Assembly: GCF_002198735.1 (NCBI RefSeq)
Contig: NZ_MWLO01000067.1
Coordinates: forward strand, 1-45,780
Direction of reading: 5' to 3'
Source: Ideonella sp. A 288
Lineage (GTDB): Bacteria > Pseudomonadota > Gammaproteobacteria > Burkholderiales > Burkholderiaceae_C
Length of the DNA: 45,780 nt
Positions 4,093 through 41,940 of this stretch are shown one piece after another (within the stretch, counting starts at the first letter, position 1; every line of letters starts with the position of its first letter). The notes below the pieces were generated by a model, which was not told the origin of the DNA, did not search any database, and worked only from the letters and a program-made list of their open reading frames with translations. The position numbers and the translations under genes were made by a program.

Positions 4093-5274
4093 ATGACCCT
4101 GCACACCGCCACCCTGCCCCGCCACGCGCCGTCCCGCGGCGGGGGCGACGGCACCGGTGGCGGGGGTCGCGTGGCCCGCACGCTGCTGGCACTGTCGCTG
4201 GGCCTGGCCGGTGCCACGGGGGCCTGGGCCCAGGCGCGCTATGCCGTCACCGACCTGGGCATGCTGCCGGGCTACGCCACCTGCGTCACCACCAAGCTCA
4301 ACGACCAGGGCAGCGTGGTCGGCTATTGCGCGCCGGCGGTCGAGAACTTCAACCAGATGGGCTTCGTCTGGAACGGCGGCACGATGACGGCCGTGGGCAA
4401 GCTGACCGGCGGCCTGTACAGCATCGCCAACGCGGTCAATGCGACGGGCAAGGTCACCGGGGACGGCGACAACGGCAACGGCCGCCCGCAGAGCTGGGTC
4501 AGCAGCCCGACCGGCCTGGTCAACATCTTCAGCAACAACGGCGGCAACACGCACTCTCTGTTCATCGGCGACACCGGCTGGGTGGGTGGCTACTACACCA
4601 AGAGCCTGTCGGGCAACACCTCGTCGTGGAAGGGTGCGATCTGGACGCCCAGCGCGAAAGATCCGCGCAAGTACAGCACCCTCGACTTGCCGGTGCTGCC
4701 GGGCGGCATCGACCCCAAGTCCACCAGTTCCATCCCCTCGGCCTTCAACCAGTCCGGGCAGGCCGCAGGCTACGCGTCGAATGACCAGATCGGCCAGCAT
4801 GCGGCGTTCTGGAACAACAACGCCGCACACAGCATCGTCGACCTCGGCGTCTACCCCGGCGACTGGAGCAGTCTGGCCTGGGGCCTCAACGACCTCGGCC
4901 AGGTCGTCGGCACCAGCCACCCGCCCTTCGGCAGCCGCCCGGTGCTGTGGAACAACGACCCCGCCCACACCGCGGTGGCGCTGCCGCCGCTGCCCGGCGA
5001 CAACGCCGGCCAGGCGTTTGCGATCAACAACCTCGGCCAGGTGCTGGGCACCAGCAACCTCACGGTGCCGGGCACCTGGGATGGCGCCACGCCCGAGCGC
5101 CTGGTGATCTGGCGCGACGGCGGCGTGTTCACGCTGCAGTCGCTGCTCGATCCGGTCAGCGGCGCCGGCTGGACAGTGGTCGCCGCCGCGGCCATCAACA
5201 ACGTCGGCCAGATCGCCGCCACGGCCACCTTCAACGGCCAGACCCGTCCGGTGCTGCTGACCCCGATGCCCTGA
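4093..5274 (+). CDS. Secreted HAF-repeat protein
   Basis: A 393-residue exported protein. A basic, glycine-rich N-terminus leads to a hydrophobic helix (LLALSLGLAGATGAWA) with a likely signal-peptidase cut after AWAQA near residue 46. The mature part repeats a motif of the type YAVTDLG-LPG, then a segment like A-A-INN-GQVVGTS, then an aromatic W- or F-W phrase. This is the pattern of the probable extracellular HAF family. At least five INN/LND-x-GQ-x-x-G copies are visible (for example LNDLGQVVG, INNLGQVLG, INNVGQIAA), suggesting a beta-propeller-like repeat fold. There is no PEP-CTERM tail or lipobox, so it is probably released to the periplasm or outside. A strong GAGGAG ribosome site is at 4079-4084. 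Biological role unknown. Confidence 0.82.
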   Translation: MTLHTATLPRHAPSRGGGDGTGGGGRVARTLLALSLGLAGATGAWAQARYAVTDLGMLPGYATCVTTKLNDQGSVVGYCAPAVENFNQMGFVWNGGTMTAVGKLTGGLYSIANAVNATGKVTGDGDNGNGRPQSWVSSPTGLVNIFSNNGGNTHSLFIGDTGWVGGYYTKSLSGNTSSWKGAIWTPSAKDPRKYSTLDLPVLPGGIDPKSTSSIPSAFNQSGQAAGYASNDQIGQHAAFWNNNAAHSIVDLGVYPGDWSSLAWGLNDLGQVVGTSHPPFGSRPVLWNNDPAHTAVALPPLPGDNAGQAFAINNLGQVLGTSNLTVPGTWDGATPERLVIWRDGGVFTLQSLLDPVSGAGWTVVAAAAINNVGQIAATATFNGQTRPVLLTPMP

Positions 5275-5551
5275 ACGCCGGGCGGCCTTTCCCGGCCCCA
5301 GGGGCGCGGCAGGCCGCGCCTGTTCATCCCGCGTTCAGCTCTGCAGCAAGTGCTTACGGCACTTGCACGATGGACGGTCATCGGTTGATCCAGTTCACGC
5401 GCATACCATACCGGGCATCCTTATATTCCTCACCGAGGTTCGCCACGAATCCGCCGGGATTTCCCCGGCAGCGAGGGCGGGTCGCCTCCACCGTCGGGCC
5501 GGCGCTTACCAGCCGGCAGGCGGCACCAGGGGCTTCTGTGAGGAGATCGCG

Positions 5552-8182
5552 ATGAACACTGACACGTGCGCAGGTGCCCGACCGGGCCTGCTGCGAACCC
5601 TGGTCACCTGGCTGACGCTGTGCCTGTGGGCCTTGTCGGGCCAGGCCGTTGCCGCTCTGTCGGCATCGACCGACGCGGTCTCGCTGCCGGCCAACACCTA
5701 CAAGACCGTGCAGGTCACCGGGGCCCGCGGCAGTCTGCGGGCGTCCAGCGGCAACAAGTCGGTGGCCACCGTCTCCGTGAAGAACTCGGAGGACTCCGGC
5801 GCCACGCTCGAGATCGTCGGCAAGGCCATGGGCAGCACCACGGTCACGGTGAAGGACCGCAACGACCAGCGCGTCGTGCTGGCGGTGACGGTGACCAAGG
5901 CGGCCTTCCTCACGGTGACGCCCAGCTCGCTCACGCTGACCGCCGGCAGCAACGCCACGCTCACGGCCGGCAACGTCTCGGGCAGCCTGTCGGCACGCAC
6001 GGCCAATTCGAACGTGGCCACGGTGTCGGTGTCGGACAAGGTGATCACGGTGCGCGGCCGCGCGGCAGGCACCACCATCGTCACGGTCAAGGATCGCAAG
6101 AGTGCCGTCAACGTGCCCGTCACGGTGACGGCGACGGCGCCGCCGATGACGGTGTCGCCCGGCAGCCTGTCGGTGGCGATCGGTGGCAGCGCCACGGTCA
6201 CCGCCAGCAATGCCGCAGCGGCCATCGCCGCCGCCTCCAGCAACACGGCCGTCGCGACGGTGTCGGTGTCGTCCAACGTGGTCACCGTGCGCGGCGTCGC
6301 GGCCGGCAACGCGGTGGTGGCGGTGTCGGATGGCAAGACCACGGTCAACGTCGCGGTGACGGTCAGCGGCACGGCAGTGGCGATGACGGCCTCGCCGTCG
6401 TCGCTGTCGCTCGCGGTGGGCAGCAGTGGTGCCATCACCGCCAGCAATGTCTCGGGCACCTTGAGTGCGTCGTCCAGCAACACCGGCGTGACCACGGTCA
6501 GCGTGTCCGGCAGCACGGTCGCCGTGCGCGCCGTGGCCGCCGGCTCGGCCACGGTGACGCTGAAGGACAGCAAGACCACGATCACGGTGCCGGTCACGGT
6601 GTCCACGGTGGCCGCCAGCGGACGCTACTCGCTGATCGCCTGGAACGACCTGGGCATGCACTGCATGGACGGCGACTACTCGGTCTTCTCCATCCTGCCG
6701 CCCTACAACAACCTGCATGCCCAACTCGTCAACGCCACCACCGGCAAGGCGGTGACCTCGGGCGTCACGCTCACCTACGAGGCGGTGGCCGACCCCACCG
6801 GGTCGATCAACACCACCAGCGCGGGCAAGTCGAACTTCTGGCAATGGTCGCAGCCGCTGTACGGCGCCTCCCCCGCGGCCGACGTCGGGCTGACCGGCTT
6901 TGCCACGCCCTCTCGCACGGCACGGTCGATGGTGCTGGACAGCGCCAACGGCTGGTTCGAAGCCAGCGGCGTGCCGATCACCCCGTTCGACGACACCGGC
7001 GCGAAGAACTTCTACCCCACCGTCAAGGTGACGGCCAAGGACGCCACCGGCCGTGTGCTGGCCTCGACGACCACGGTGCTGCCGGTGTCCGACGAGATGA
7101 ACTGCGCCGCCTGCCACAGCTCGCGCGCGGCCACCGAAACCAACAGCGCGCGGCTGGCCGCCAAGCCGGTGGCCGGTTGGGTCAACGACGGCACCGGCGA
7201 GCGCGACTGGAAGAAGAACATCCTGCGCCTGCACGACGAGAAGCAGGCCGCCAACCCGAAGTACGTGGCCGCGCTGGCCGCCAAGGGCATGCCATCGGGG
7301 CTGTACGCCGCGGCGCTGGGCGGCACGCCCACGCTGTGCGCGTCGTGCCATGCGTCCAACGCCCTGCCGGGCACCGGCATGGCCGGCATCGCGCCGCTCA
7401 CCGCCAGCCTGCACACCAACCACGGCAAGGTGATCGACCCGACCACGATGCTGTCGCTCGAGGCCGGCACCAACCGCAATGCCTGCTACAACTGCCACCC
7501 GGGCTCGCAGACCAAGTGCCTGCGCGGCGCGATGGGCGATGCGGTCGACGCCAGCGGCAACGCCACCATGGGTTGCCAGGCCTGCCACGGCGGCATGGCC
7601 AAGGTGGGAGCGCCCACGCGCGTCGGCTGGCTGCAGCAGCCCACCTGCCAGGCCTGCCACTTCAATGGCAAGCGCACCACCAGCGCGGTCGATGCGGCAG
7701 GCAACCTGGTCGTGCCCGCCGACACCCGCTTCGCCACCAACGCCAACGTGCCAGCGGCCGGCTTCAGCCTGTTCCGCTTCAGCAAGGGCCATGGCGGCAT
7801 GCAGTGCGAGGCCTGCCATGGCTCCACCCACGCCGAGTACCCCAGCTCGCACGTGAACGACAACCTGCAGAGCATCGCCTTGCAGGGCTATGCCGGCACG
7901 ATCCGCGAGTGCACCGCCTGCCACGCCACGGTGCCGATGACGGCCACCGGCGGCCCGCACGGCATGCACACCATCGGACAGGGCTGGGTGAAGGAGCACG
8001 GCGACCTGGTCGAATCCAGTGGCTCCAGCAGTTGCGCCTACTGCCACGGCAGCGACTTCCGCGGCACGCCGCTGTCGCAGGTGAAGGTGGCACGCACCTA
8101 CTCGGTGGAGGGCAGCAACCGCACCATCGCCGCGGGCAAGAACGTCGGCTGCTACGAATGCCACAACGGGCCCAACCCGTGA
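5552..8182 (+). CDS. Ig-like (BID_2) repeats fused to nine-haem cytochrome c
   Basis: An 876-residue exported electron-transfer protein. ATG 5552 has GAGGAG a few bases upstream and starts a signal peptide ending near AVAALS at residue 36. Residues about 37-370 are four tandem bacterial Ig-like (BID_2/Big_2) domains of about 80 residues, each with a TVTP/TVSP-SL start and a VATVSV-VTV-AAG-VTV core. A non-haem domain opening SLIAWNDLGMHCMDGDYS covers about 378-510. The C-terminal half holds nine CxxCH haem sites, at residues 518, 596, 645, 675, 699, 752, 787, 828 and 867. The protein should sit on or outside the outer membrane with the Ig domains as a stalk and the haems as an electron wire. 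It could be a terminal reductase or conduit. No partner porin or inner-membrane cytochrome is adjacent. A 277-base leader precedes it. Confidence 0.88.
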   Translation: MNTDTCAGARPGLLRTLVTWLTLCLWALSGQAVAALSASTDAVSLPANTYKTVQVTGARGSLRASSGNKSVATVSVKNSEDSGATLEIVGKAMGSTTVTVKDRNDQRVVLAVTVTKAAFLTVTPSSLTLTAGSNATLTAGNVSGSLSARTANSNVATVSVSDKVITVRGRAAGTTIVTVKDRKSAVNVPVTVTATAPPMTVSPGSLSVAIGGSATVTASNAAAAIAAASSNTAVATVSVSSNVVTVRGVAAGNAVVAVSDGKTTVNVAVTVSGTAVAMTASPSSLSLAVGSSGAITASNVSGTLSASSSNTGVTTVSVSGSTVAVRAVAAGSATVTLKDSKTTITVPVTVSTVAASGRYSLIAWNDLGMHCMDGDYSVFSILPPYNNLHAQLVNATTGKAVTSGVTLTYEAVADPTGSINTTSAGKSNFWQWSQPLYGASPAADVGLTGFATPSRTARSMVLDSANGWFEASGVPITPFDDTGAKNFYPTVKVTAKDATGRVLASTTTVLPVSDEMNCAACHSSRAATETNSARLAAKPVAGWVNDGTGERDWKKNILRLHDEKQAANPKYVAALAAKGMPSGLYAAALGGTPTLCASCHASNALPGTGMAGIAPLTASLHTNHGKVIDPTTMLSLEAGTNRNACYNCHPGSQTKCLRGAMGDAVDASGNATMGCQACHGGMAKVGAPTRVGWLQQPTCQACHFNGKRTTSAVDAAGNLVVPADTRFATNANVPAAGFSLFRFSKGHGGMQCEACHGSTHAEYPSSHVNDNLQSIALQGYAGTIRECTACHATVPMTATGGPHGMHTIGQGWVKEHGDLVESSGSSSCAYCHGSDFRGTPLSQVKVARTYSVEGSNRTIAAGKNVGCYECHNGPNP

Positions 8183-8211
8183 CCTGAGGACCGCCTGGTC
8201 CCGATGGCACT

Positions 8212-8242
8212 GATCAGGGGGCGCGAGCCCCCTGATCCTTTT
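8212..8242 (+). terminator. Strong rho-independent terminator
   Basis: GATCAGGGGGC (8212-8222) and GCCCCCTGATC (8227-8237) form a perfect 11-bp stem with a GCGA tetraloop, followed by CTTTT. It lies 29 bases after the cytochrome stop codon and between convergent genes. The T tract is only on the plus side, so it mainly stops transcription of the cytochrome gene. Confidence 0.92.
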
Positions 8243-8266
8243 GCGGCACCGCAGCCCGCGGCAGGC

Positions 8267-9931
8267 TCAGCGGTTGGGCCAGAAGCGCAGCAGCGCGTTG
8301 TTGCGATCGGCGGTCATGTAGATGCTGCCGTCGGCGGCCACCGCCACGCCGGTGGCCACGTAGAACGGCGGCATCCCCGGGCCCGGCTCCAGTCCGATCG
8401 GCAGGTGCTCGGCCACGCTGCGGCGGGCGCCGTGGGCCGGGCCGATCTCGGTCAGCCGCCGAGCCTGCGACTCGGCCACGACGAAGCTGCCCCAGGGGGT
8501 CTGCGCCAGGCCCTCGGGCATGGCCAGCTTGTCGGCCAGCACCTTGCGCGCGCCGGTGGCGAGGTCGATGCGCACCAGGTTGCCGGCGGCCTCGGTGAGC
8601 ACCACCGCGCCGTCGCGGGCCAGGATCATCTGCACCGGCCCGGCCAGGTCCTTGGCCACCACCACGCGGGTCTTGAAGTGCTCGCCGCTGGCGCGCAGCA
8701 GGCTGCCCGTGCCCAGTTCGAGCACCAGCAGGCTGCCATCGTCCATCGGGATGGCGTCCACCGGCGCCTTGAAGCCATGCACCATCTCCACGTGCCTCTG
8801 CGTCGCCCGGTCGAGCAACTGCACCGTGCCGGTGAACCAGGACGCCAGCGCGATCGTCCGCGACCCCAGGCCGACCGCGAACGGGTACTCCAGCTCCGAG
8901 GCCTGCATGCGGTGCACGTCGCGCACATCGCCCGTCAGCATGTCGACCCCGCGGAAGCCGAACACGTCGGCTACCCAAAGCGTGCCGCCGTCGACCTTGA
9001 GGCCGGACGGCACGGCCAGCTTGCCGCGCGTGACCTGGGTGACGCGGCCCGTGGCCGGGTCGACGGCCTGGATGCCGTTGTCGGCCATGTTGGACACGTA
9101 GACTGTGCCGTCGGGCGCGATGGCCAGGTTGTCGATCGCGGTGGACAGCGTGGCGACCACGCTCCTGCGGCCGCTGGCCAGGTCCACCCGGCACAGCTCA
9201 CCGGTGCGGGTGTCGATCACCCACAGGTGGCCCTTGCCGTCCAGGTTGGCGGCGGCCGGCGTCTTGAACTCGCTGTTGAGCACGGTGAGCCTGCCGTCGG
9301 CCGGGTCGATCTTCACCACCTGGCCCTTGAACCACAGCGGCCCGTACAGCAGGCCGTCGGGGCCGACCTCGAAGCCGTTGAAGCCACCCAGGTCCTTGGC
9401 GATGAGGCGCGGCGCGGCCACGCCGGCCACGTCGATCTCCCACAGCGCGTCGCCGAGGAACACCTGGCTGGCGTAGAGCTTGCCGGTGCGGCGGTCGAAA
9501 TCGATCGAGTTGATGCCCGGCAGGTCCTTGGCCAGCACGCGGATCGGTGCCGCGTCGCTTTCGCGGTAGCGCACGAGGCCCTGCAGGTAGGACGTCCAGG
9601 CCAGCTCGCCCTTCGGCCCGACGGCGATGTCGTCGGACTGCCCCTCCGGCGCGGCGATGAACACCTTGGCATCGCCGGTGCGCCGGTCGACCTGCCACAT
9701 GTTGTTGCCCACCACCGTGCCGGCCAGCAGCCGCCCCTGCGCATCGATGGCCAGCCCGTGCACGCCGTGGAACGACGACGCTGGCACCAGCACCTGCGGC
9801 GCCGCCCAGCTGGGCGGCCGCTCGACCGGCTTCGGCCCCGGCGTCGTGATCGCCGCCGGCAAGGTGCAGGCGGACAGCGTGGCCAATGCGGCCACCGTGG
9901 CCGCCAACACGCAATGGAAACGCACAACCAT
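8267..9931 (-). CDS. Lipoprotein with NHL/SMP-30-like beta-propeller
   Basis: A 554-residue lipoprotein. From ATG 9931, preceded by GGGAGA at a normal distance, the N-terminus has a hydrophobic helix and the lipobox LSAC, so Cys near residue 22 is the likely lipidated residue. The rest is a long series of blades with phrases such as GLAIDAQGRLLAGT, IDNLAIAPDGTVYVSN and GVAVAADGSIYMTADRNN, typical of NHL/SMP-30/gluconolactonase-like propellers. No catalytic metal-site set is evident by eye, so a binding or scaffolding role is as likely as lactonase activity. At over 500 residues it is longer than a single six-bladed propeller (about 300) and may hold two. It converges on the cytochrome gene and is divergent from the next lipoprotein. 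Confidence 0.8.
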   Translation of the reverse strand: MVVRFHCVLAATVAALATLSACTLPAAITTPGPKPVERPPSWAAPQVLVPASSFHGVHGLAIDAQGRLLAGTVVGNNMWQVDRRTGDAKVFIAAPEGQSDDIAVGPKGELAWTSYLQGLVRYRESDAAPIRVLAKDLPGINSIDFDRRTGKLYASQVFLGDALWEIDVAGVAAPRLIAKDLGGFNGFEVGPDGLLYGPLWFKGQVVKIDPADGRLTVLNSEFKTPAAANLDGKGHLWVIDTRTGELCRVDLASGRRSVVATLSTAIDNLAIAPDGTVYVSNMADNGIQAVDPATGRVTQVTRGKLAVPSGLKVDGGTLWVADVFGFRGVDMLTGDVRDVHRMQASELEYPFAVGLGSRTIALASWFTGTVQLLDRATQRHVEMVHGFKAPVDAIPMDDGSLLVLELGTGSLLRASGEHFKTRVVVAKDLAGPVQMILARDGAVVLTEAAGNLVRIDLATGARKVLADKLAMPEGLAQTPWGSFVVAESQARRLTEIGPAHGARRSVAEHLPIGLEPGPGMPPFYVATGVAVAADGSIYMTADRNNALLRFWPNR

Positions 9932-33062: not shown

Positions 33063-34829
33063 ATGCCCCTGAGCCACCTGCTGCGCCTGCTGGCAGCCCT
33101 GCTGACCCTCACCACCGCCGCGGTGGTGGCCCGCATGGCGTGGACCGAATGGAGCGACTACGGACGCGCCGGCGTGGCCATCGAGGCGGTGGCGCAGTTG
33201 CGCCTGGCGCTGCAGGCCGCCGAAATGGTGTCGCGCGAACGTGGCCCCACCAATGGCGTGCTGGGCAGCGCGGCACCCGCGCCGCCAGAACGGCTGCGGG
33301 CGCTGACCGAGGCCCGCGAGCGCACCGACCGCAGCCTGGACGCGCTCGGCCAGGTCATGGCCGGCCTGGACCACGACGCCGCCCGGCAGGACGCCGCCCG
33401 GCGCTACCTGGCCGGCCGACTGGCGCTGCGCGAGGCGCGCGCCACGGTCGACCGGGTCGCCGCGCTACCCAAGGCCGAACGCAGCGCGGGCAGCCTCGAG
33501 GGCGCCGTCACCGGCATGGTGGCGGTGGTGCCGACGCTGGCCCCGGCCATCGCGATTTTGGCCAACGACGCCCAGAAGGCCTACCCACCGCTGGGCGATG
33601 CGGTGCAGGGCGCCCGCATGATCGCCGAGCTGCGCGAGTACGCCGGCCTGCTGGGCTCGCACTTCACCGCGGCGCTCACCGCCGAGCGGCCCTTCACCGC
33701 CGACGAGCGCGCGCAGATCGAACGCACGCGCGGCCGCATCGACGAGCTGCGCTTCCTGGCCTCGCTGCGCGTGCAGCTGCCGGGCCAGGCCGGCCCGGTG
33801 ATGCAGGCCTGGATGCGCGCCGAGGCGCAGTACTTCCAGGTGGCCCAGCAGATCGTGCAGGCGGTGCTGGCGGCCGGCGCCAGCGACGGCCGCTACGGCA
33901 TGGACCCGGCGGGCTTTGCCGCGCGCTACGTGCCGGAGATGAACACCCTGTTCGACCTGCGCGACGGGCTGCTGGCCGAGGCCGCCACGATGGCACGGGC
34001 CGGACAGTCCCATGCACGTGGCGAACTGCTGCTGGCCGCGGCCGCCGCGGTGCTGCTGTTGGCGATGCTGGCCGCGTACCTGGCCATCGTCCAGCGCCGG
34101 GTGCTGCAGCCGTTGGCCGGCACCACGCGGGCGCTGGAGGCCCTGGCGCGCCACGAACTGGACGCACCGCTGCCGCGCCCGCAGGCCGACGACGAGATGG
34201 CGGCCGTGATCGGCGCGGTGCGCACGCTGCAGACCCAGGTGCGCCAGCGCCAGACCCTGGAGCGCGAACGCGACGGCCTGATCGAGCGCCTGCGCGACCT
34301 GTCGAACACCGACTTCCTGACCGGCCTGCCCAACCGGCGCGCCTTCTTCCAGGCCGCGCAACGCGATCTGGCCGAGGCCCGCCGCCACGGCCATTGCGCC
34401 GTGCTGGTGCTGCTGGACGTGGACCACTTCAAGCAGTTCAACGACACCCATGGCCACGCGGCCGGCGACCAGGCCCTGGTGGAGGTGGGGCAGGCGATCC
34501 GCCGCGCGCCGCGCTTGGGCGACGCGGTGGGCCGCTTCGGCGGCGAAGAGTTCGTGCTGATGCTCAACCACTGCGACGCCGAGCAGGGCCTGCGCTTCGC
34601 CGAGCGCCTGCGCGAGGGCATCGCGCAGACGGCCCTGGCCGGCGCGAACGGTGCCTCGGTGATGCGCGTCACCGTCAGCGTGGGCGTGACCAGCACCGAC
34701 TGCTGCGGCTTCGACCTGCAGACCCTGTTGAGCCGCGCCGACGCCGCCATGTACCGCGCCAAGCGCGCCGGGCGCAACCAGGTGATGCAGGCCGACCCGG
34801 TGGATGCCGCGAGCGCGACGACCGTCTGA
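33063..34829 (+). CDS. Membrane diguanylate cyclase
   Basis: A 588-residue inner-membrane protein likely to make cyclic di-GMP. One membrane helix lies at about residues 5-25 and a second at about 320-345, enclosing a periplasmic helical sensor of some 290 residues rich in nitrate/taxis-sensor-like helices. A HAMP-like linker (RRVLQPLAGTTRALEALARHELDAPLP) and a coiled coil lead to a GGDEF domain opening DFLTGLPNRRAFF. Its signature is an intact GGEEF near residue 495, and LLDVDHFKQFNDTHGHAAGD is fully conserved, so activity is expected. An RxxD inhibition site is not obvious. The start ATG has a weak ribosome site. It is monocistronic. Confidence 0.9.
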   Translation: MPLSHLLRLLAALLTLTTAAVVARMAWTEWSDYGRAGVAIEAVAQLRLALQAAEMVSRERGPTNGVLGSAAPAPPERLRALTEARERTDRSLDALGQVMAGLDHDAARQDAARRYLAGRLALREARATVDRVAALPKAERSAGSLEGAVTGMVAVVPTLAPAIAILANDAQKAYPPLGDAVQGARMIAELREYAGLLGSHFTAALTAERPFTADERAQIERTRGRIDELRFLASLRVQLPGQAGPVMQAWMRAEAQYFQVAQQIVQAVLAAGASDGRYGMDPAGFAARYVPEMNTLFDLRDGLLAEAATMARAGQSHARGELLLAAAAAVLLLAMLAAYLAIVQRRVLQPLAGTTRALEALARHELDAPLPRPQADDEMAAVIGAVRTLQTQVRQRQTLERERDGLIERLRDLSNTDFLTGLPNRRAFFQAAQRDLAEARRHGHCAVLVLLDVDHFKQFNDTHGHAAGDQALVEVGQAIRRAPRLGDAVGRFGGEEFVLMLNHCDAEQGLRFAERLREGIAQTALAGANGASVMRVTVSVGVTSTDCCGFDLQTLLSRADAAMYRAKRAGRNQVMQADPVDAASATTV

Positions 34830-34950
34830 GCCCGCCCCTCCGGGGCCGACGACAGGCGCCTTGGCGCCAGCGAACCTCGCGCGAAACCCCTGACGCACCG
34901 CCGCGCGCGGCCCCGTCACAATGGTCTCCAACGCCACCTGGAGATCCGCG

Positions 34951-35931
34951 ATGAATCCGCTCCGCCTGTCCCGCCGACTCGCCGGCCTGTCGGCCTTGGC
35001 GACGGCCCTGACCATGGCCCTGCCCGCGATGGCGCAGGAGGTCACGCTCCGGGCCGTCAACGCCTTCCAGGAAGGCACCTACTACGCCCGCAACTTCGAG
35101 CGCTTCGTCAAGAAGGTCAACGAAGAAGGCAAGGGCGTCGTGCAGATCAACTACCTGGGCGGGCCCAAGGCCATCCCGACGATGGAGCAGGGCTCGGCGC
35201 TGCGCAACGGCGTGGTCGACCTGTCCAACACCACCACCTCCTTCGTGGCCAGCGTGTCGCCCGAGAGCCTGGCGGTGAACTACGCCACCGTGTCCTGGGC
35301 CGAGATGCGCAAGAACGGCACGGTCGACTTCCTCAACAAGCTGATGATGGAGAAGGGCCTGTACTACTTCGCCCGCACCGGCGACGGCGTGCCGTACCAC
35401 ATCTACCTCAACAAGAAGATCGACAAGGCCGACCTGTCGGGCCTGAAGATCCGCATCGCGCCGATCTACCGCGAGTTCTTCACCAAGCTGGGCGCGTCGG
35501 TGATGCAGGTGGCGCCGGGCGAGGTGTTCACCGCGCTCGACCGCGGCGTGGTCGACGGCTACGGCTGGCCGCTGCTGGGCATCTTCGACCTGGGCTGGCA
35601 CGAGAAGACCAAGTACCGCGTCGACCCCGGCTTCTACAACATCGAGCTGGGCATCATCTTCAGCGCCAAGAGCTGGAACGCGCTCACCGCCGCCCAGCGC
35701 GAGTTCCTCAACAAGCAGGTGGCCTGGGTCGAGGCACAGAACGCCGACATGGCCACCAAGGACGGCCCGGCCGACCTGAAGCGCCAGGCCGACGCCGGCA
35801 TCCAGACCATCAAGCTGCCCGACGCCGAGGCGAAGAAGCTGCTCACGCTGTCGCAAGAGGCGGGCTGGGCCGGCATCCTGGCCACCAGCCCGCAGCATGG
35901 CGCCAGGCTGCGCCAGCTGATGGCCCCCTGA
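34951..35931 (+). CDS. TRAP transporter solute-binding protein (DctP type)
   Basis: A 326-residue periplasmic binding protein with a signal peptide (LAGLSALATALTMALPAMA, cut before QEVTL). The DctP fold is visible. The carboxylate-binding arginine is expected in LSGLKIRIAPIYREFFTKLGA, followed by PGEVFTALDRGVVDGYGWP. DctP proteins capture organic acids for the QM permease. Here the two permease genes follow at 10 and -1 bases. ATG 34951 is chosen for the CTGGAGAT ribosome site and because the signal starts there; an earlier ATG at 34921 adds residues without one. CACAAT at 34917-34922 may be a -10. Since a Rieske oxygenase is in the same operon, the ligand may be an aromatic carboxylate (inference). 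Confidence 0.92.
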   Translation: MNPLRLSRRLAGLSALATALTMALPAMAQEVTLRAVNAFQEGTYYARNFERFVKKVNEEGKGVVQINYLGGPKAIPTMEQGSALRNGVVDLSNTTTSFVASVSPESLAVNYATVSWAEMRKNGTVDFLNKLMMEKGLYYFARTGDGVPYHIYLNKKIDKADLSGLKIRIAPIYREFFTKLGASVMQVAPGEVFTALDRGVVDGYGWPLLGIFDLGWHEKTKYRVDPGFYNIELGIIFSAKSWNALTAAQREFLNKQVAWVEAQNADMATKDGPADLKRQADAGIQTIKLPDAEAKKLLTLSQEAGWAGILATSPQHGARLRQLMAP

Positions 35932-35941
35932 CCCCGCACGC

Positions 35942-36424
35942 ATGCACGCTGCCCTGATGCGCGCCTGCGGCGTGGTGGCCGCAGGGGTGGTCGCGCTGAT
36001 CACGCTGCTGGTGTGCTGGGACGTCGTCACCCGCAACCTGGGCCTGCGCTCGCTGCCCTGGATCAACGAGGTCACCGAGTACGCGCTGCCCATCGCCACG
36101 CTGGCCGCCGCGCCGTGGCTGATGTGGCGCAACCAGCATGTGCGGCTCGACCTGCTGGGCGCCGTGCTGTCGCCCGCCGCGCAGCGCCGCGTCGACCGCA
36201 TGGCCTCGCTGCTGGGGCTGGTGGTGAGCCTGCTGATGGTGTGGTACTCGGTGCGCGTGCTGCTGGACAGCCGCGACGCCGGCAGCCTGGTGATCAAGGC
36301 GCTGGTGTTCCCGGAATGGTGGCTGTACGTGCCGGTGCCCTTCGGCTTTGCGCTGCTGGCGCTCGAGTGCGGCCGGCGGGTGCTCTTCCCCAGCGGCCTG
36401 ACCGACGAGGCGGAGACCCGCTGA
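35942..36424 (+). CDS. TRAP transporter small permease (DctQ type)
   Basis: A 160-residue protein with four membrane helices, the normal size and layout for DctQ. It has the typical phrases VVTRNLGLRSLPWINEVTEYALP and NQHVRLDLLG. It stabilises the large permease and supports sodium-driven uptake. Its stop shares a base with the next start (TGATG), so translation is coupled. Confidence 0.9.
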   Translation: MHAALMRACGVVAAGVVALITLLVCWDVVTRNLGLRSLPWINEVTEYALPIATLAAAPWLMWRNQHVRLDLLGAVLSPAAQRRVDRMASLLGLVVSLLMVWYSVRVLLDSRDAGSLVIKALVFPEWWLYVPVPFGFALLALECGRRVLFPSGLTDEAETR

Positions 36425-37743
36425 TGCTGTGGTGGCACAGCCTGCTGCTGCTGTTCGGCGTGCTCACCCTGCTGCTGCTGGTGGGGCTGCCGGCGGGCTT
36501 CGCGTTCCTGGGCATCAACCTGGTCGGCGCGGTGGTCTACCTGGGCGGCGAGGCCGGCCTGATGCAGGTGGTGCGCAACAGCATCGCGTCGGTCACCAAC
36601 TTCTCGCTCACGCCGATCCCGTTCTTCATCCTGATGGGCGAGGTGCTGTTCCACACCGGCCTGGCGATGCGCGCGATCGACAGCTTCGACCGCGCCATCC
36701 GCGGCGTGCCGGCGCGGCTGTCGGTGGTGGCCATCGTCGCCGGCACGGTGTTCTCGGCCATCTCGGGTTCCACCATCGCCACCACCGCGCTGCTGGGCAG
36801 CCTGCTGCTGCCCGAGATGCTCAAGCGCGGCTACCACCCGCGCATGGCCATGGGGCCGATCATGGCCATCGGCGGCGTCGACATGCTGATCCCGCCGTCG
36901 GCGCTGACCGTGCTGCTGGGCAGCCTGGCCGGCATCTCGATCTCGGGCCTGCTGATCGCCGGCGTGGTGCCGGGCTTCGCGATGGCGGCGATGTTCCTGG
37001 GCTGGATCGTCTTCAGCGCCTGGCGCAACCCGGCGCTGGCGCCGCCGTCGGAGCCCGAGCCCACGCACGGCTGGGCCCGCTGGGGCCCGCTGCTGGTCAA
37101 CGTGACGCCGCTGGTGCTGATCTTCGTGCTGGTCATCGTGGCCATGTCGGCCGGCTGGGCCACGCCCACCGAATCGGCCGCGCTGGGCGCCCTGGCCACG
37201 GTGGTGGTGTGCTTCGCCTACCGCTCGCTCACCGGCGTGGCCCTGGGCCAGGCGCTGATGGGCACGGCGGCGATCACCGGCGTCATCCTGTTCATCATCA
37301 TCGGCGCCACCACCTTCTCGCAGATCCTGTCGTTCTCGGGCGCCACCAACGGCCTGGTGGGCCTGGTCAAGGACGCCAGCCTGGCGCCGTGGATGGTGAT
37401 GGCCGCGATGATCGCGATGCTGCTGGTGCTGGGCTGCTTCGTCGACCAGGTGAGCATGATGCTGATCACCCTGCCCTTCTTCATGCCGCTGGTGCAGCAC
37501 TACGCGTGGGATCCGCTGTGGTTCGGCGTGGTCTACCTGATCTGCATGCAGCTGGGCCTGCTGACGCCGCCCTTCGGCATGCTGCTGTTCACCATGCGCG
37601 GTGTGGCGCCCAAGTCCATCCCCACCAGCGAGATCTTCGCCGCCGTCACGCCCTATGTGCTGATGGGTGTGCTGATGGTGGCCCTGGTGCTGCTGGTGCC
37701 GGGCCTGGCCACCTGGCTGCCGACGCTGCTGCTCGGAAAATAG
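36424..37743 (+). CDS. TRAP transporter large permease (DctM type)
   Basis: A 439-residue integral membrane protein with about twelve to thirteen helices. DctM signatures include FFILMGEVLFHTGLA, SGSTIATTALLGSLLLPEM, GGVDMLIPPSALTVLLG, GWATPTESAALGALA and QLGLLTPPFGMLLF. It is the sodium-coupled channel of the TRAP system. It starts inside the dctQ stop and ends 8 bases before the V4R gene, showing that transporter and oxygenase genes share one transcript. Confidence 0.92.
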   Translation: MLWWHSLLLLFGVLTLLLLVGLPAGFAFLGINLVGAVVYLGGEAGLMQVVRNSIASVTNFSLTPIPFFILMGEVLFHTGLAMRAIDSFDRAIRGVPARLSVVAIVAGTVFSAISGSTIATTALLGSLLLPEMLKRGYHPRMAMGPIMAIGGVDMLIPPSALTVLLGSLAGISISGLLIAGVVPGFAMAAMFLGWIVFSAWRNPALAPPSEPEPTHGWARWGPLLVNVTPLVLIFVLVIVAMSAGWATPTESAALGALATVVVCFAYRSLTGVALGQALMGTAAITGVILFIIIGATTFSQILSFSGATNGLVGLVKDASLAPWMVMAAMIAMLLVLGCFVDQVSMMLITLPFFMPLVQHYAWDPLWFGVVYLICMQLGLLTPPFGMLLFTMRGVAPKSIPTSEIFAAVTPYVLMGVLMVALVLLVPGLATWLPTLLLGK

Positions 37744-37751
37744 GGGCCACG

Positions 37752-38273
37752 ATGGGCGACCTTCGCAAACGGCTGAGATGGAACCGCAGCGGCGCGCTGC
37801 ACGACGGCCCGCGCCGCTACCTGATGACGCGCACCGACGTGATGATGGGCACCGTGAAGCTGCTCGACGACGCTGGCCAGCGCGCCATGCTCGACGCCTG
37901 GGCCGCGTCCACCCGCCAGCACGGTGCCGACAGCCTGCGCGCCTACGCCGAGACCGTGGGCCACGAGAAGGCCGCGCTGATCGCCGCCACCGTGGAATCG
38001 GCGGCCGACCTGGGCTGGGGCCTGTGGACGGTGACGCGCGACGGCGCGACGTTGCGCCTGTCGGTCGAGGACAGCCCGTTCGCCGCCGGCTGGGCCGCCG
38101 CCACCACCCGCCCGGCCGACCAGCCGGTGTGCGCGCCGATCCGCGGCATGTTCGGCGCACTGGCCGAACTGCTGACGTCCACCCGCGTGGTGGTCGAGGA
38201 ATGCGACTGCGCGGCGCTGTGGCCCGGCACCGGCCACGGCTGCCATTTCGTCGCCCGGAAGCCGCCGAAATGA
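37752..38273 (+). CDS. V4R-domain protein
   Basis: A 173-residue soluble protein of the V4R (4-vinyl reductase) domain type. The closing segment VVVEECDCAALWPGTGHGCHFVARK has the conserved cysteines and GxxCxF seen in that domain. V4R domains bind small hydrophobic or aromatic molecules; they occur in bacteriochlorophyll BchJ and as the sensor part of XylR/DmpR regulators. Three Cys/His residues at about 152-167 could hold a metal. It lies 8 bases after dctM and its stop overlaps the oxygenase alpha start as ATGA. It may therefore be an accessory or substrate-handling factor for the oxygenase. No DNA-binding part is attached. Confidence 0.72.
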   Translation: MGDLRKRLRWNRSGALHDGPRRYLMTRTDVMMGTVKLLDDAGQRAMLDAWAASTRQHGADSLRAYAETVGHEKAALIAATVESAADLGWGLWTVTRDGATLRLSVEDSPFAAGWAAATTRPADQPVCAPIRGMFGALAELLTSTRVVVEECDCAALWPGTGHGCHFVARKPPK

Positions 38274-39628
38274 CACCGGATGCGAGCGCCCTGGTGCAGC
38301 CTGCCCAGGTGCACCGCGACCTGTACACCAGCCCGGCGATCTTCGCGCTCGAGATGCAGCGGCTGTGGGCCGGCTCGTGGCTCTTCGTCGGCCACGACAG
38401 CCAGGTGCCCGCGGCCGGCGACTTCGTCACCACCGACCTGGCCGGCCAGCCGGTGCTGATGCTGCGCCGCGAGGACGGCGGCATCGGCGTGCTGCACAAC
38501 CGCTGCGCCCACAAGGGCGCGCCGCTGAGCACCGCAGCGGCCGGCCATGCCGACCGCTACCTGCGCTGCCCCTACCACGGCTGGACCTACCGGCTCGACG
38601 GCCGGCTGGCCGGCATACCGCTGAAGTCCGGCCTGCCGGCCACCGCCGACCAGCCGGCCCGCGCCGGCTATGCCGGCAGCGGCTTCGAGCACTGCCCGGC
38701 GCAGGACGGCCTCACGGCGTATGGCGAGGTGGCCAGCCACCGCGGCTTCGTCTTCGCCCGCGCCCGGCCCGGCGGCCCGCCCTTCGACGCCTGCCTGGGC
38801 GAGCTGCTGCAGGCGCTGGACCTGCTGGCCGACCGCTCGCCGCAGGGTCGGCTGCGCGTGGCCGGCGGCGTGCTGCGCACCACGTTCGCGGCCAACTGGA
38901 AGATCTACCTCGAGAACATCAACGACGCCTTCCACCCGGTGACCACCCACGCGTCGGCCACCGAGGCCGCGCAGGGCGCCTGGGGCACGCCGCCCGAGGG
39001 CACGCCGGTGCCGCTGGCGATGAGGCAGTTGCTGCCCTTCGCGGCGGGCTACGACTTCTTCGACCAGATGGGCGGGCGGCTGCTGCCGCACGGCTGCAGC
39101 GTGCTGGGCACGCGGCAGAGCCTGCACACGGCGTACACCGGCCTGGGCGGCTATGCCGAGGCCCTGCAGGCCGCGCATGGCCGCGAGCGCGCCGAGGCGG
39201 TGCTGCGCTTCGCCCCGCAGAACGTGGTGTTCTACCCGTCGATGGCCCTGAAGGGCGCGCCGCAGGTGATGCGCGTGCTGCGCCCGCTGGCCGCCGACCG
39301 CACGGTGCTGGAGGCCTGGGCCTTCGAGGCCGAGGGCGCGCCGCCCGAGCTGCTGCAGAGCGCCCTGCTCTACAACCGGCAGGTGTTCTCGCCGCTGTCG
39401 ATCGTGGCCCACGACGACCTGCACCTCTTCGAGGGCATCCAGCGCAGCCTGGCCGCCGACGGCAACCCCTGGGTCAGCCTGCACCGGGGTGCCGCGGCCG
39501 ACGCCGACGCCGGCGCCGTGCTGCCTCGCGATGTGAGCGGCATCGACGAAGCCCTGCTGCGCCACCAGTACCAGGCCTGGGCCGAGAAGATGGCCGGGCC
39601 CGCCACCGGTGCGGAGGCCTCGCCATGA
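38270..39628 (+). CDS. Rieske ring-hydroxylating oxygenase, alpha subunit
   Basis: A 452-residue catalytic subunit of a Rieske non-haem iron oxygenase. The 2Fe-2S ligands are Cys79-x-His81 (CAHKG) and Cys100-x2-His103 (CPYHGW). The mononuclear iron site is Asp219-x2-His222-x4-His227 in INDAFHPVTTH, with a later Asp expected near 370. The N-terminus (DLYTSPAIFALEMQRLWAGSWLFVGH) resembles the benzoate/anthranilate/halobenzoate group, suggesting an aromatic acid substrate that becomes a dihydrodiol or hydroxylated product. It overlaps both neighbours by ATGA. The beta subunit follows, but no ferredoxin, reductase or diol dehydrogenase is in the window, so electrons must come from elsewhere. Confidence 0.9.
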   Translation: MTPDASALVQPAQVHRDLYTSPAIFALEMQRLWAGSWLFVGHDSQVPAAGDFVTTDLAGQPVLMLRREDGGIGVLHNRCAHKGAPLSTAAAGHADRYLRCPYHGWTYRLDGRLAGIPLKSGLPATADQPARAGYAGSGFEHCPAQDGLTAYGEVASHRGFVFARARPGGPPFDACLGELLQALDLLADRSPQGRLRVAGGVLRTTFAANWKIYLENINDAFHPVTTHASATEAAQGAWGTPPEGTPVPLAMRQLLPFAAGYDFFDQMGGRLLPHGCSVLGTRQSLHTAYTGLGGYAEALQAAHGRERAEAVLRFAPQNVVFYPSMALKGAPQVMRVLRPLAADRTVLEAWAFEAEGAPPELLQSALLYNRQVFSPLSIVAHDDLHLFEGIQRSLAADGNPWVSLHRGAAADADAGAVLPRDVSGIDEALLRHQYQAWAEKMAGPATGAEASP

Positions 39629-40113
39629 CCCCCGCCGACGTCACCGAGCCGGCCCTGCTGCGGGCCATCGCCCACGAGGCCCGCCTGCTGGACGAGCAGC
39701 GGCTGGACGAGTGGAACGCGCTGTTCACCCCCGACGGCTGGTACTGGCTGCCCGCCGACACGGCGCACACCGACCCGCTGCGCCAGGCCTCGCACCTGTA
39801 CGACGACCACCTGCTGCGCGAGGTGCGCATCCGCCGCCTGCGCAGCCCGCAGGCGCATTCGCAGCAAGCGCCCGGCCGCTGCCACCACCTGCTGCAGGCC
39901 GGCGAGGTGCTGGTGCACGACGCCGCCGCCAACCGCTTCGAGACGCGCACGCCCTTCGTCTACACCGAACTGCGCGCCGGCCGCACCTCCACGCTGCCGG
40001 GCGTGGCCTGGCACACCTGGCGCGTGCACGACGGCGCGCTGCGCCTCGCGCTCAAGCGCGTGGACCTGCTGCACGCCGCCGAGCCCCTGCCGGCGATCGA
40101 GTTCTACCTCTGA
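39625..40113 (+). CDS. Rieske ring-hydroxylating oxygenase, beta subunit
   Basis: A 162-residue small subunit of the SnoaL-like fold. It has the family phrases IAHEARLLDEQRLDEWNALFTPDGWYWLPA and SHLYDDHLLREVRIRRL, ending in a run of strands with RLALKRVDLL. It has a structural role in an alpha3-beta3 oxygenase and helps set substrate range. It overlaps the alpha gene by ATGA and ends the operon, 18 bases before a convergent gene. Length is normal for the family. Confidence 0.9.
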   Translation: MTPADVTEPALLRAIAHEARLLDEQRLDEWNALFTPDGWYWLPADTAHTDPLRQASHLYDDHLLREVRIRRLRSPQAHSQQAPGRCHHLLQAGEVLVHDAAANRFETRTPFVYTELRAGRTSTLPGVAWHTWRVHDGALRLALKRVDLLHAAEPLPAIEFYL

Positions 40114-40131
40114 CGGCCGGCAACCCGGCGC

Positions 40132-40656
40132 TCAGGCCGGGGGATCGGTGCGCTGGGTGAGCCACCAGGCCAGGTTGACCTGCAGGTTCTCCATCAGCCG
40201 CGCCGCGGCGGTGGACTGTGCGGACACCAGGGCCAGGCTCTGCTGCACCAGGTTCATCTCCTGGTCGACGTACTTCGACACGGTGTTGGCCTGGCGCAGT
40301 TCGCCGGCCTCCTGGCCCAGCTCGGTCAGGCCCTCCAGCCACTGCGCCTGCAGCGTCATCCACTGCTGCGCCACCGCGCTCGACAACGCCAGCATCTCCT
40401 GCAGCGCCTGCGGGTCGAAGGCCAGCGTGGGCAGCGCGGCCGCCGCCTGCAGGCCTTGCGCCGAGCGGCTCATCGCCACCTGACGCAGCATCGAGTGCGC
40501 CGCCTGGGCCCGCGCCATCGGCAGCATCGGCCACGGCAGGCGCCGCGGGTGGGCGGCATCGGGCAGTGCCGCCGCGGCCAGCCGGCCATGGGCCCGCCCC
40601 AGGTCATCGGGCCGGGAACCGGCGGCATCCATCATCGAGCCGTGCATCGGGCGCAT
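40132..40656 (-). CDS. Phasin-like protein
   Basis: A 174-residue helical protein. After a variable Ala/Arg/Pro-rich first 60 residues, the rest is long amphipathic helix (QALQEMLALSSAVAQQWMTLQAQWLEGLTELGQ, then VSKYVDQEMNLVQQSLALVSAQSTAAARLMENLQVNL). That is the pattern of phasins that coat polyhydroxybutyrate granules. It lies just downstream of a PHB depolymerase gene on the same strand, with 32 bases between, which supports the call. GGAGA is the ribosome site. The match is by pattern; another coiled-coil protein is possible. Confidence 0.68.
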   Translation of the reverse strand: MRPMHGSMMDAAGSRPDDLGRAHGRLAAAALPDAAHPRRLPWPMLPMARAQAAHSMLRQVAMSRSAQGLQAAAALPTLAFDPQALQEMLALSSAVAQQWMTLQAQWLEGLTELGQEAGELRQANTVSKYVDQEMNLVQQSLALVSAQSTAAARLMENLQVNLAWWLTQRTDPPA

Positions 40657-40688
40657 GGGAGGGTCTCCTGCAGTTCTGGGGAAAGGGG

Positions 40689-41771
40689 TCAGCGCCCACC
40701 CAGCCGCTGCAGCATCCCGTGGATGGCGCGGATCTGGATGGCGTGCTGCGAGTAGTAGTCGGGCTGGTCGGCGCTGGGGCTGCTGTAGCCCCACCAGTCC
40801 CAGCAGCCTTCGGGGTTCTGCGTGCGGCCGTCGTCGATGCCTTCGGCCTGCGGGTACAGCACCACGATGTCGTTGCGGTCGGCCATCTCGTTGTAGCCGG
40901 TGGTGGTGATGTAGCGGTTGCCGTAGGGCGGCATGTTGGTTCGGTCGGGGCGGCCGCTGACGAGATCGACGTAGTTGTAGCCCTGCTTGCAGCCGTGCAG
41001 CGCCACGTGGATGCGGCACTGGGCGCCCTCGAGCACCGATTGCGGCACGTAGGCATAGCCGAAGTCGCTCATGCTGGCGCGGCTGTCGCCGTCGAAGAAC
41101 TCGCGCTGGTCGAAGCGGATCAGCCGGCCACCGGGCCGCTCGGCCGGCGGGTTCAGCTTCTCGTAGATGTGTTCGAGGATGTCCCAGCTCTGCATGCGCG
41201 ATCCCGCCGGCAGGCGGTTGATGTAGGGCGGGCGGTTGGCATCGAGCGGGTTGTCTTCGAGGTTGGTCGTGAGGATCGCGTGGCCGGCCGGCACGCCGCC
41301 CACGAACATCAGGTTGCCGGGCCGCACGCCCAGCAGTTCGTAGAAACGACGCGTGGTCTCGACCACCGACGAGTTGACGACCTTGTCCTCGCTGCCGGTG
41401 AAGATGTACAGGCGAGCATCGGCCAGGTGGTGCAGCGGGTCGATCAGCCGGTCGGCCGCGGTCTGCCGTGCCATCGCCACCAGGCGCTCGGGGTTGGGCC
41501 CGGCCTGCGGGATCAGCGGGTTCATGCAGACGAACAGCGCGTTCTGCACGTAGGCGTCCTCGGCGATGAACGACGCCGCGCGGAACGACTCGGCGCAGCG
41601 GTAGGGCCCGCCGGCGATGATGCCGGCGCCGACGAACATCGACGAGTGCGCAAGGTGCAGCTGCACCGTCATGAAGGCTCCCGACGACAGGCCCGAGACC
41701 GAGCACTGCGTGAGGTCGGCGTTGAAGCGGGGCAGCTGCTCCGCGCGAGTGGGGTCGATCATCGTGGCCAT
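40689..41771 (-). CDS. Intracellular-type PHB depolymerase
   Basis: A 360-residue alpha/beta hydrolase that should cleave polyhydroxybutyrate. The lipase box is G-L-S-S-G with Ser29 in CSVSGLSSGAF, unusually close to the N-terminus. The oxyanion-type HVALHGCKQGYNYVD and the late catalytic His region fit the type-1 catalytic domain of PHB depolymerases. There is no signal peptide and no substrate-binding domain, unlike secreted depolymerases. This resembles the intracellular PhaZd enzymes of Cupriavidus and implies mobilisation of its own granules. GGAGGA lies seven bases before ATG 41771. The phasin-like gene follows. Confidence 0.85.
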   Translation of the reverse strand: MATMIDPTRAEQLPRFNADLTQCSVSGLSSGAFMTVQLHLAHSSMFVGAGIIAGGPYRCAESFRAASFIAEDAYVQNALFVCMNPLIPQAGPNPERLVAMARQTAADRLIDPLHHLADARLYIFTGSEDKVVNSSVVETTRRFYELLGVRPGNLMFVGGVPAGHAILTTNLEDNPLDANRPPYINRLPAGSRMQSWDILEHIYEKLNPPAERPGGRLIRFDQREFFDGDSRASMSDFGYAYVPQSVLEGAQCRIHVALHGCKQGYNYVDLVSGRPDRTNMPPYGNRYITTTGYNEMADRNDIVVLYPQAEGIDDGRTQNPEGCWDWWGYSSPSADQPDYYSQHAIQIRAIHGMLQRLGGR

Positions 41772-41940
41772 CCGGTCCTCCGCCTTGTCGTTTGCACCAG
41801 GAGAATGCTGCGCTGCAGCACGAGCGAAGGCTACACAAACTCCGTCGCCGCGTCGAGCCGCCCAGGCGTTCGACGGGGTGGATGTTGCGGCACCGCAGCA
41901 AACCGGCGCATCCACCGCGGGGTGGACGCGGCCGCGGCGG

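Follow-up and report, generated by a model that had tools for sequence, protein, structure and literature searches.

What does a free-standing V4R protein do between a transporter and an oxygenase? The question is raised by an operon in a 45,780-nucleotide stretch of the Ideonella sp. A 288 genome (GCF_002198735.1, contig NZ_MWLO01000067.1, positions 1 to 45,780), which we call the window. Six genes in one plus-strand run (34951 to 40113) encode the DctP, DctQ, and DctM proteins of a tripartite ATP-independent periplasmic (TRAP) transporter, a V4R protein, and the alpha and beta subunits of a Rieske oxygenase. Bacteria that degrade auxin, by any of several known pathways, influence the growth of roots. 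From sequence comparisons and structural models, we propose that this operon encodes an importer and an oxygenase for an indole-3-acetate-like acid and that V4R binds this acid in the cytoplasm, a proposal to which we give an even chance of being correct.

The window V4R protein barely exceeds the Pfam cut-off (PF02830, 31.3 to 32.5 bits versus 31). All 15 members of the family that we assembled matched V4R at E ≤1 (best, 4.2e-16), and these matches, a profile search, and a fold search agree, which upholds the V4R call made in an earlier, sequence-only reading of this DNA. Family members are 34 to 43% identical to the window protein, and their 15-row alignment contains 30 invariant positions, including C127, E150, C153, C164, and the motifs LGWGxW and SPFA. 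Searched singly against solved structures, the window sequence retrieved no V4R protein (the best match, at E = 0.01, was a designed armadillo protein and looks like chance). The 15-row profile matched MopR (6e-6), PoxR (8.5e-5), and DmpR/CapR (1.5e-4), with the invariant C, E, C, and C columns in register with MopR and PoxR; in DmpR, the zinc ligands are Cys151, Glu172, Cys177, and Cys185 (PMC7264223). Compared as profiles, the family and two XylR_N proteins of the order gave a probability of 94.8% and an E value of 5.5e-8 over 148 columns, the middle of which aligned poorly. When a predicted model was used for the fold search, the top Foldseek match was the PoxR sensory domain (E = 9.5e-4, the sole match below 0.001), and PoxR, MopR, or DmpR accounted for 15 of 50 rows among the matches listed. 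Pfam XylR_N (PF06505) was found in none of the 15 members and nowhere in the Ideonella genome. The region of the phenol-positioning His/Trp is shortened in the family, and the alignment there is unreliable. Judged by sequence and model, the window protein resembles a free-standing relative of the PoxR/MopR/DmpR sensor domain but falls outside that family of regulators.

We counted 15 V4R loci: the window, L007 to L010, and L025 to L034 (L, C, and G numbers are our handles for loci, contigs, and genomes). Apart from the window, ten strong loci came from genome samples, one from a named genome (Paracoccus sp. MKU1, in a scan that detects close relatives only), and three from plasmid records (Novosphingobium sp. 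P6W, Rhizobium rhizoryzae, and Paracoccaceae bacterium La 6), the same three being returned by three queries. Genes of auxin, indole, or anthranilate pathways occur in 13 of the 15 loci, and their arrangements number at least four: iad-like with a Rieske oxygenase, iac-type, iaa-type with a GGG acyl-CoA dehydrogenase, and a cluster with a luciferase-like monooxygenase (LLM). Ten of these assignments rest on outside markers, which were taken from V4R-free iad-like clusters of Azospirillum, Sulfitobacter, and Paracoccus saliphilus (L072 to L074). The marker-positive loci are the window, L010, L026 (cut at the locus edge), and L027 to L033, with L031 positive by its cyclase alone; two further loci were assigned by iac-type gene sets and one by an iaa-type set. 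At 40% identity, half coverage, and an E value of 1e-20, no marker was found in any of eight control stretches: five around the marginal V4R hits left out of the count (G172, G368, G389, G020, and G747), some of which may not be V4R genes, one around a BchJ-like gene, and two taken elsewhere in the window, with a 6-kb overlap; one of the stretches is only 7 kb long.

The arrangements differ in both enzymes and transporters. L007 and L009 encode an acyl-CoA-dehydrogenase-like monooxygenase, V4R, an ATP-binding cassette (ABC) importer, a Rieske pair, a reductase, a flavin reductase, and an amidase, and these products correspond to the published iac operon list (PMC11373566, Table 1). No iacE was found in L009, and the Rieske, reductase, and amidase genes of L007 lie on the opposite strand. 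L025 encodes a hydantoinase B, an acyl-CoA dehydrogenase, a methylmalonyl-CoA-mutase family protein, a molybdenum hydroxylase trio, a CoA-transferase III, V4R, 3HCDH/ECH, and an ABC binding protein. Its acyl-CoA dehydrogenase has GGG close to the C terminus; IaaF, the acyl-CoA dehydrogenase of iaa operons, has GGG instead of YEG (PMC8360864). L007 and L009 were classed as iac by product list and L025 as iaa by gene set and motif, not by Iac or Iaa reference sequences. All nine loci from L026 to L034 encode a GntR regulator, an LLM monooxygenase (61 to 63% identical to the Novosphingobium one), an HpcH/HpaI aldolase, and V4R; a flavin reductase is present in six, a flavin adenine dinucleotide (FAD) oxidase in five, a cyclase in six, and an indolepyruvate oxidoreductase in five (L031 is cut by a contig end). 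L010 holds TRAP genes, V4R, an FAD oxidase, HpcH, a cyclase, and an indolepyruvate oxidoreductase, and a gene for a salicylyl/anthraniloyl-CoA monooxygenase is close by; L008 holds a major facilitator superfamily transporter, an FAD oxidase, V4R, and an LLM. The LLM clusters of L026 to L034 and L008, in which not all genes occur in every locus, are a candidate undescribed indole or auxin route. Two of them have further neighbors, as read from translations. In L026, RidA, tryptophan 2,3-dioxygenase, kynureninase, and aminobenzoate-CoA-ligase-like genes lie beside the V4R/LLM cluster (4554 to 8724). Beside the V4R cluster of L034 is a dimethylamine monooxygenase-like set of GcvT-like, IadC-like reductase, and DUF3445-like genes (5626 to 9570).

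The sequence-only reading had taken the window operon for an uptake-and-oxygenation unit in which V4R perhaps binds the substrate. The IadDE-like oxygenase pair described below and the pathway association of the family favor that idea; the dctM-V4R-Rieske order, in contrast, is not conserved among the 15 loci, of which the window alone has it. A Rieske pair is present in the fetched stretches of 3 of the 15 loci and adjoins V4R only in the window, and on these counts a specific tie between V4R and Rieske oxygenases was rejected. Thirteen loci, all except L010 and L025, hold an oxygenase of the Rieske, acyl-CoA-dehydrogenase-like, or LLM type. Transport genes flank V4R directly in four loci (the window, L007, L009, and L010) and are two genes removed from it in L008 and L025. 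Annotation of the flanks is incomplete for L026 to L034, where the transporter count may be low. The transporter and the enzyme vary between loci; what the loci share is a pathway and not a gene order. That V4R is an unrelated gene lying by chance between transporter and oxygenase would fit the single occurrence of the exact order. This seems extremely unlikely, given the stop-start overlaps, the recurrence of TRAP-V4R in L010, and the pathway genes found in 13 of 15 loci versus none of eight controls.

The neighboring enzymes also bear on a catalytic or assembly role. V4R could be an enzyme, or a maturation or assembly factor for the metallo-oxygenases of these clusters, and oxidoreductases do adjoin a protein whose LGWGxW, SPFA, and Cys/Glu positions are invariant over 15 members. 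The partner enzymes, however, differ in cofactor class (Rieske iron, flavin, and molybdenum), and the invariant Cys/Glu occupy the zinc ligand positions of sensor domains; we regard this role as quite improbable.

A freed aromatic-sensor domain could also act as a reporter of ligand, signaling to a regulator or kinase when loaded, instead of carrying the ligand. This agrees with the homology of V4R to sensor domains that transmit ligand state (the DmpR sensor acts on its own AAA+ domain; PMC7264223) and with the GntR- or LysR-type regulators found in the fetched stretches of 13 of the 15 loci. The two loci without an annotated or matched regulator of these types are the window, where no regulator gene adjoins V4R, and L025. 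The V4R protein, moreover, has no AAA+, helix-turn-helix (HTH), or other output domain by Pfam, and its overlapping neighbor is an enzyme gene: the V4R stop codon lies within an ATGA that opens a frame of 368 to 684 codons in eight loci (the window, L008, L010, L025, L028 to L030, and L032), and in L007 the overlapping enzyme gene is upstream. On balance, we consider a reporter function unlikely and return to V4R as a binding protein for the acid that the operon imports and oxidizes.

The identity of that acid was approached through the oxygenase. Among solved proteins, the best phmmer matches of the alpha subunit were 9o71 (429 bits) and 7yls/8h2t (425 bits), whereas the next enzyme, biphenyl dioxygenase, scored 138 bits; the beta subunit matched the beta chain of the same three entries at 157 bits, with the next match at 31 bits. 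The code 8H2T appears in the text on the Variovorax auxin oxygenase IadDE (PMC10374108), whose substrate is indole-3-acetic acid (IAA; PMC10374108 and PMC12633357). IadCDE is reported to act as a monooxygenase, and iadC to be dispensable for IAA degradation in its host yet required for the effect on roots (PMC12633357). The window alpha subunit is 44% identical to that of Variovorax (186/426 residues) and keeps all of its metal ligands: the Rieske ligands C85, H87, C106, and H109 correspond to C79, H81, C100, and H103, and the iron ligands H216, H221, and D377 to H222, H227, and D383. At seven of the nine published IAA-pocket positions, the residue is identical, including the equivalents of K322, R329, F251, Y362, and N210; the two changes are L211 to I and H311 to Q. 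In IadD, H311 shifts upon IAA binding (PMC10374108). In L007 and L009, the alpha subunits, which are of the Iac type, keep neither K322 nor Y362. By sequence, the window pair is IadDE-like and closest to this auxin oxygenase, and what the operon takes up and oxidizes is probably auxin, the plant hormone, or a related compound.

Relatives of the alpha subunit at 1e-60 or better were found in 25 of 250 genomes of the order, the Ideonella genome included. The latter carries a second alpha copy (45% identical) on contig C84 within an iad-like operon (L069, 241 to 12062) of genes for MarR, indolepyruvate oxidoreductase (IOR) alpha and beta, IadD, IadE, an AMP ligase, a thiolase, a short-chain dehydrogenase/reductase (SDR), a cyclase, and another SDR; no IadC was matched in this operon. 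The genome thus holds two IadDE-like oxygenases. Within the genus, 4 of 16 genomes, again including its own, have alpha matches at 1e-40, and the nearest relative of the window alpha subunit (54%) is the second copy in the congener G402. That copy sits 2.6 kb past a MarR-IORab-iadCDEFGHIJ operon, with two binding-protein-like open reading frames (ORFs), read by eye, in between, and is followed by a binding-protein-like ORF and homologues of ABC ATPases, an AMP ligase, and an anthraniloyl/salicylyl-CoA monooxygenase. Contig C15 of this congener (158195 to 185729; L092 and L093) can be viewed as an auxin supercluster of iad operon, second oxygenase, ABC-type genes, and monooxygenase homologue. 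Neither V4R nor relatives of the window TRAP genes were found in the G402 stretches. The window, the second G402 copy, L065, and L067 group together with a support of 92/100, a grouping not starred by the program, and all four share the two pocket changes, to I and to Q; at these positions, the other nine IadD-type rows have Q or L at the first and H at the second. In L065 (8353 to 10950; genome G175), the window-like oxygenase is preceded by GntR and a Bug-type binding protein, the latter read from its translation, which is another importer type paired with such an oxygenase. We read the window oxygenase as an IadDE paralogue, here next to an importer, because of the G402 copy near an iad operon, the C84 copy in its own genome, and the shared subclade.

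Alternatively, a different aryl acid, such as phenylglyoxylate, phenylacetate, or indole-3-pyruvate, could be the compound handled by the operon and bound by V4R, auxin being simply the substrate of the best-studied relative. The H311 to Q and L211 to I changes in all four subclade members would fit, as would the presence of another IadD in the Ideonella genome and the likeness of DctP to 4mnc. With 4mnc/4mni, its closest solved relatives, DctP scores 327 bits and shares 158 of 311 aligned residues (51%). The conserved equivalents of K322, R329, F251, Y362, and N210 and the placement of the congener copy next to an iad operon speak for an auxin-like substrate instead, and we consider a different aryl acid rather unlikely. 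As for the rest of the transporter, the TRAP set is complete by Pfam, and DctM is 41% identical to the DctM adjoining V4R in L010. A fold search with a single-sequence model of DctP (pLDDT 36) returned noise only.

In the mechanism that we propose, the TRAP transporter would import auxin or a closely related indole-3-acetate-like acid. The acid would then be bound by a dimer of V4R, which would have the architecture of the DmpR/PoxR phenol-sensor domain with a bracing Cys-Glu-Cys-Cys zinc site and would pass the acid to, or buffer it for, the IadDE-like oxygenase, which would be translated from the ATGA overlapping V4R. A reductase encoded at another site would supply the electrons, and the iad pathway of contig C84 would process the product further. 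We infer the substrate, the dimer, zinc binding, the hand-over, and the C84 link: ligand binding by V4R from its fold and pathway association, the hand-over to the oxygenase from gene position, and the uptake and C84 steps from gene families. Our best reading is that V4R is a predicted binder of auxin or of a similar indole acid, in the role of a carrier, a buffer, or a reporter.

Several observations weigh against this proposal. The AlphaFold model of V4R, built from two sequences, is middling (predicted local distance difference test [pLDDT], 69; predicted template modeling score [pTM], 0.69), TRAPP and BcsD folds score close behind the sensor domains in Foldseek, and the hairpin that grips phenol in DmpR is shortened in the family, leaving the pocket uncertain. 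The ligand of 4mnc/4mni, which DctP resembles, is probably benzoylformate and not IAA. The markers were picked after the loci had been seen, L008 and L034 carry none of them, and a single related arrangement recurs in the nine LLM loci, so that the loci represent four or five kinds of context and not 15 trials. No V4R was found by any of the 15 family proteins in L065 to L074 or the G402 stretches; auxin-type clusters without V4R therefore exist, and V4R is not required. The family is also small and sporadic. It was detected in 4 of 399 genomes of the order (its own and three marginal hits at E values of 7e-4 to 9e-4), in 1 of 60 genomes of relatives (its own) and none of 20 of the same genus, in 6 of 398 in the phylum sample (four strong and two marginal), in 6 of 298 and 4 of 297 in two other families of the phylum at 1e-10, and in 1 of 220, already known, in the class of G618.

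The layout of the operon bears out three further claims of the sequence-only reading: that the six genes form one operon, that V4R stands between permease and oxygenase genes and overlaps the latter, and that the oxygenase lacks a reductase here. Reading frames and Pfam matches confirm the run, in which 10 bases separate DctP from DctQ and 8 bases separate DctM from V4R, DctQ and DctM overlap by one base (TGATG), and ATGA overlaps join V4R to alpha and alpha to beta. No IadC- or IacF-type match was found in the window by tblastn, in which other kinds of reductase were not scanned for, and neither iadC nor iadF-J was matched beside the oxygenase, the iadF-J homologues of this genome lying on contig C84; genome-wide, the closest IadC matches reach 33% and 30% identity. 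The reductase may be shared or borrowed. A sigma-70 promoter scan of 34700 to 40400 found none. On the upstream side, a GGDEF gene ends at 34829, and a gene for an omega-aminotransferase is also present. Convergent with the operon, on the minus strand (40132 to 41915), are genes whose translations read as a polyhydroxybutyrate (PHB) depolymerase-type esterase-like protein and a phasin-like protein.

Genes of the TRAP-V4R-Rieske operon in the window
Feature	Coordinates	Strand	Basis
DctP, TRAP solute-binding protein	34951..35931	+	Pfam DctP, 99.5 bits
DctQ, TRAP small permease	35942..36424	+	Pfam DctQ, 87.1 bits
DctM, TRAP large permease	36424..37743	+	Pfam DctM, 235.4 bits; TIGR00786 over cut-off
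Free-standing V4R protein, 173 amino acids, putative zinc/indole-acid binder	37752..38273	+	Pfam V4R; profile; fold
Rieske alpha, IadD-like (second-oxygenase subclade)	38270..39628	+	Pfam Rieske, 70.6 bits; Ring_hydroxyl_A, 44.2 bits
Rieske beta, IadE-like	39625..40113	+	Pfam Ring_hydroxyl_B, 76.5 bits

The elements of this operon are known, and a family of free-standing V4R proteins that have zinc ligands and are associated with several auxin routes appears to be undescribed. A text search found no published link between V4R and TRAP genes, Rieske operons, or indole catabolism, most subscription journals lying outside its reach and no search having been aimed at LLM-type auxin degradation; texts matching both V4R and indole contained V4R once each, mostly under microbiota or plant-inoculum titles, and we take the term there to mean the 16S V4 primer. 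More tentatively than for the operon itself, and with somewhat less than an even chance, we suggest a free-standing bacterial auxin-binding protein: a sensor domain freed from its transcription factor and recruited into iac, iaa, and iad-like routes and into a fourth, undescribed route. As part of the same suggestion, this fourth route would be marked by V4R and would comprise GntR, LLM, flavin reductase, HpcH aldolase, V4R, FAD oxidase, cyclase, and indolepyruvate oxidoreductase. If this is true, a protein that accompanies three auxin routes and is bound to no one enzyme would point to a problem common to them, such as the handling or sensing of free auxin. V4R would then also serve as a tag in searches for further auxin pathways, as with the LLM-type cluster, and sensor domains would be able to serve as free carriers.

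The known systems closest to this operon include two kinds of V4R protein. With the sensor domains of the NtrC-type activators PoxR, MopR, and DmpR, which combine XylR_N and V4R, it has in common the V4R fold, the zinc ligands, and an alignable N-terminal segment, but it lacks their AAA+ and DNA-binding domains and a XylR_N match, and its family is 10 to 15 residues shorter before the first Cys (MAFFT alignment with two sensor proteins). BchJ, like the window protein, is a small free-standing V4R protein. Likeness to the BchJ-like protein of the Ideonella genome is, however, confined to the last 63 columns of a profile comparison (E = 1.3e-6), and instead of a photosynthesis cluster, TRAP and Rieske genes flank the window gene; we rejected the window protein as a second BchJ. 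This other V4R protein of the genome (L001/L087, contig C103) reads as BchJ itself and lies beside a BchE-like radical S-adenosylmethionine gene, and from these genes the organism is probably phototrophic. Relative to IadDE of Variovorax, the window pair lacks iadC and iadF-J neighbors and has TRAP genes and V4R in their place. The window DctP is only 23 to 27% alike to the DctP proteins beside iad operons in L073 and L074, versus 34% to that beside V4R in L010. Finally, although five papers on iac, iad, and iaa operons never mention V4R in their main texts, V4R homologues are found in iac-type (L007 and L009) and iaa-type (L025) clusters and, in the window, beside an iad-like oxygenase.

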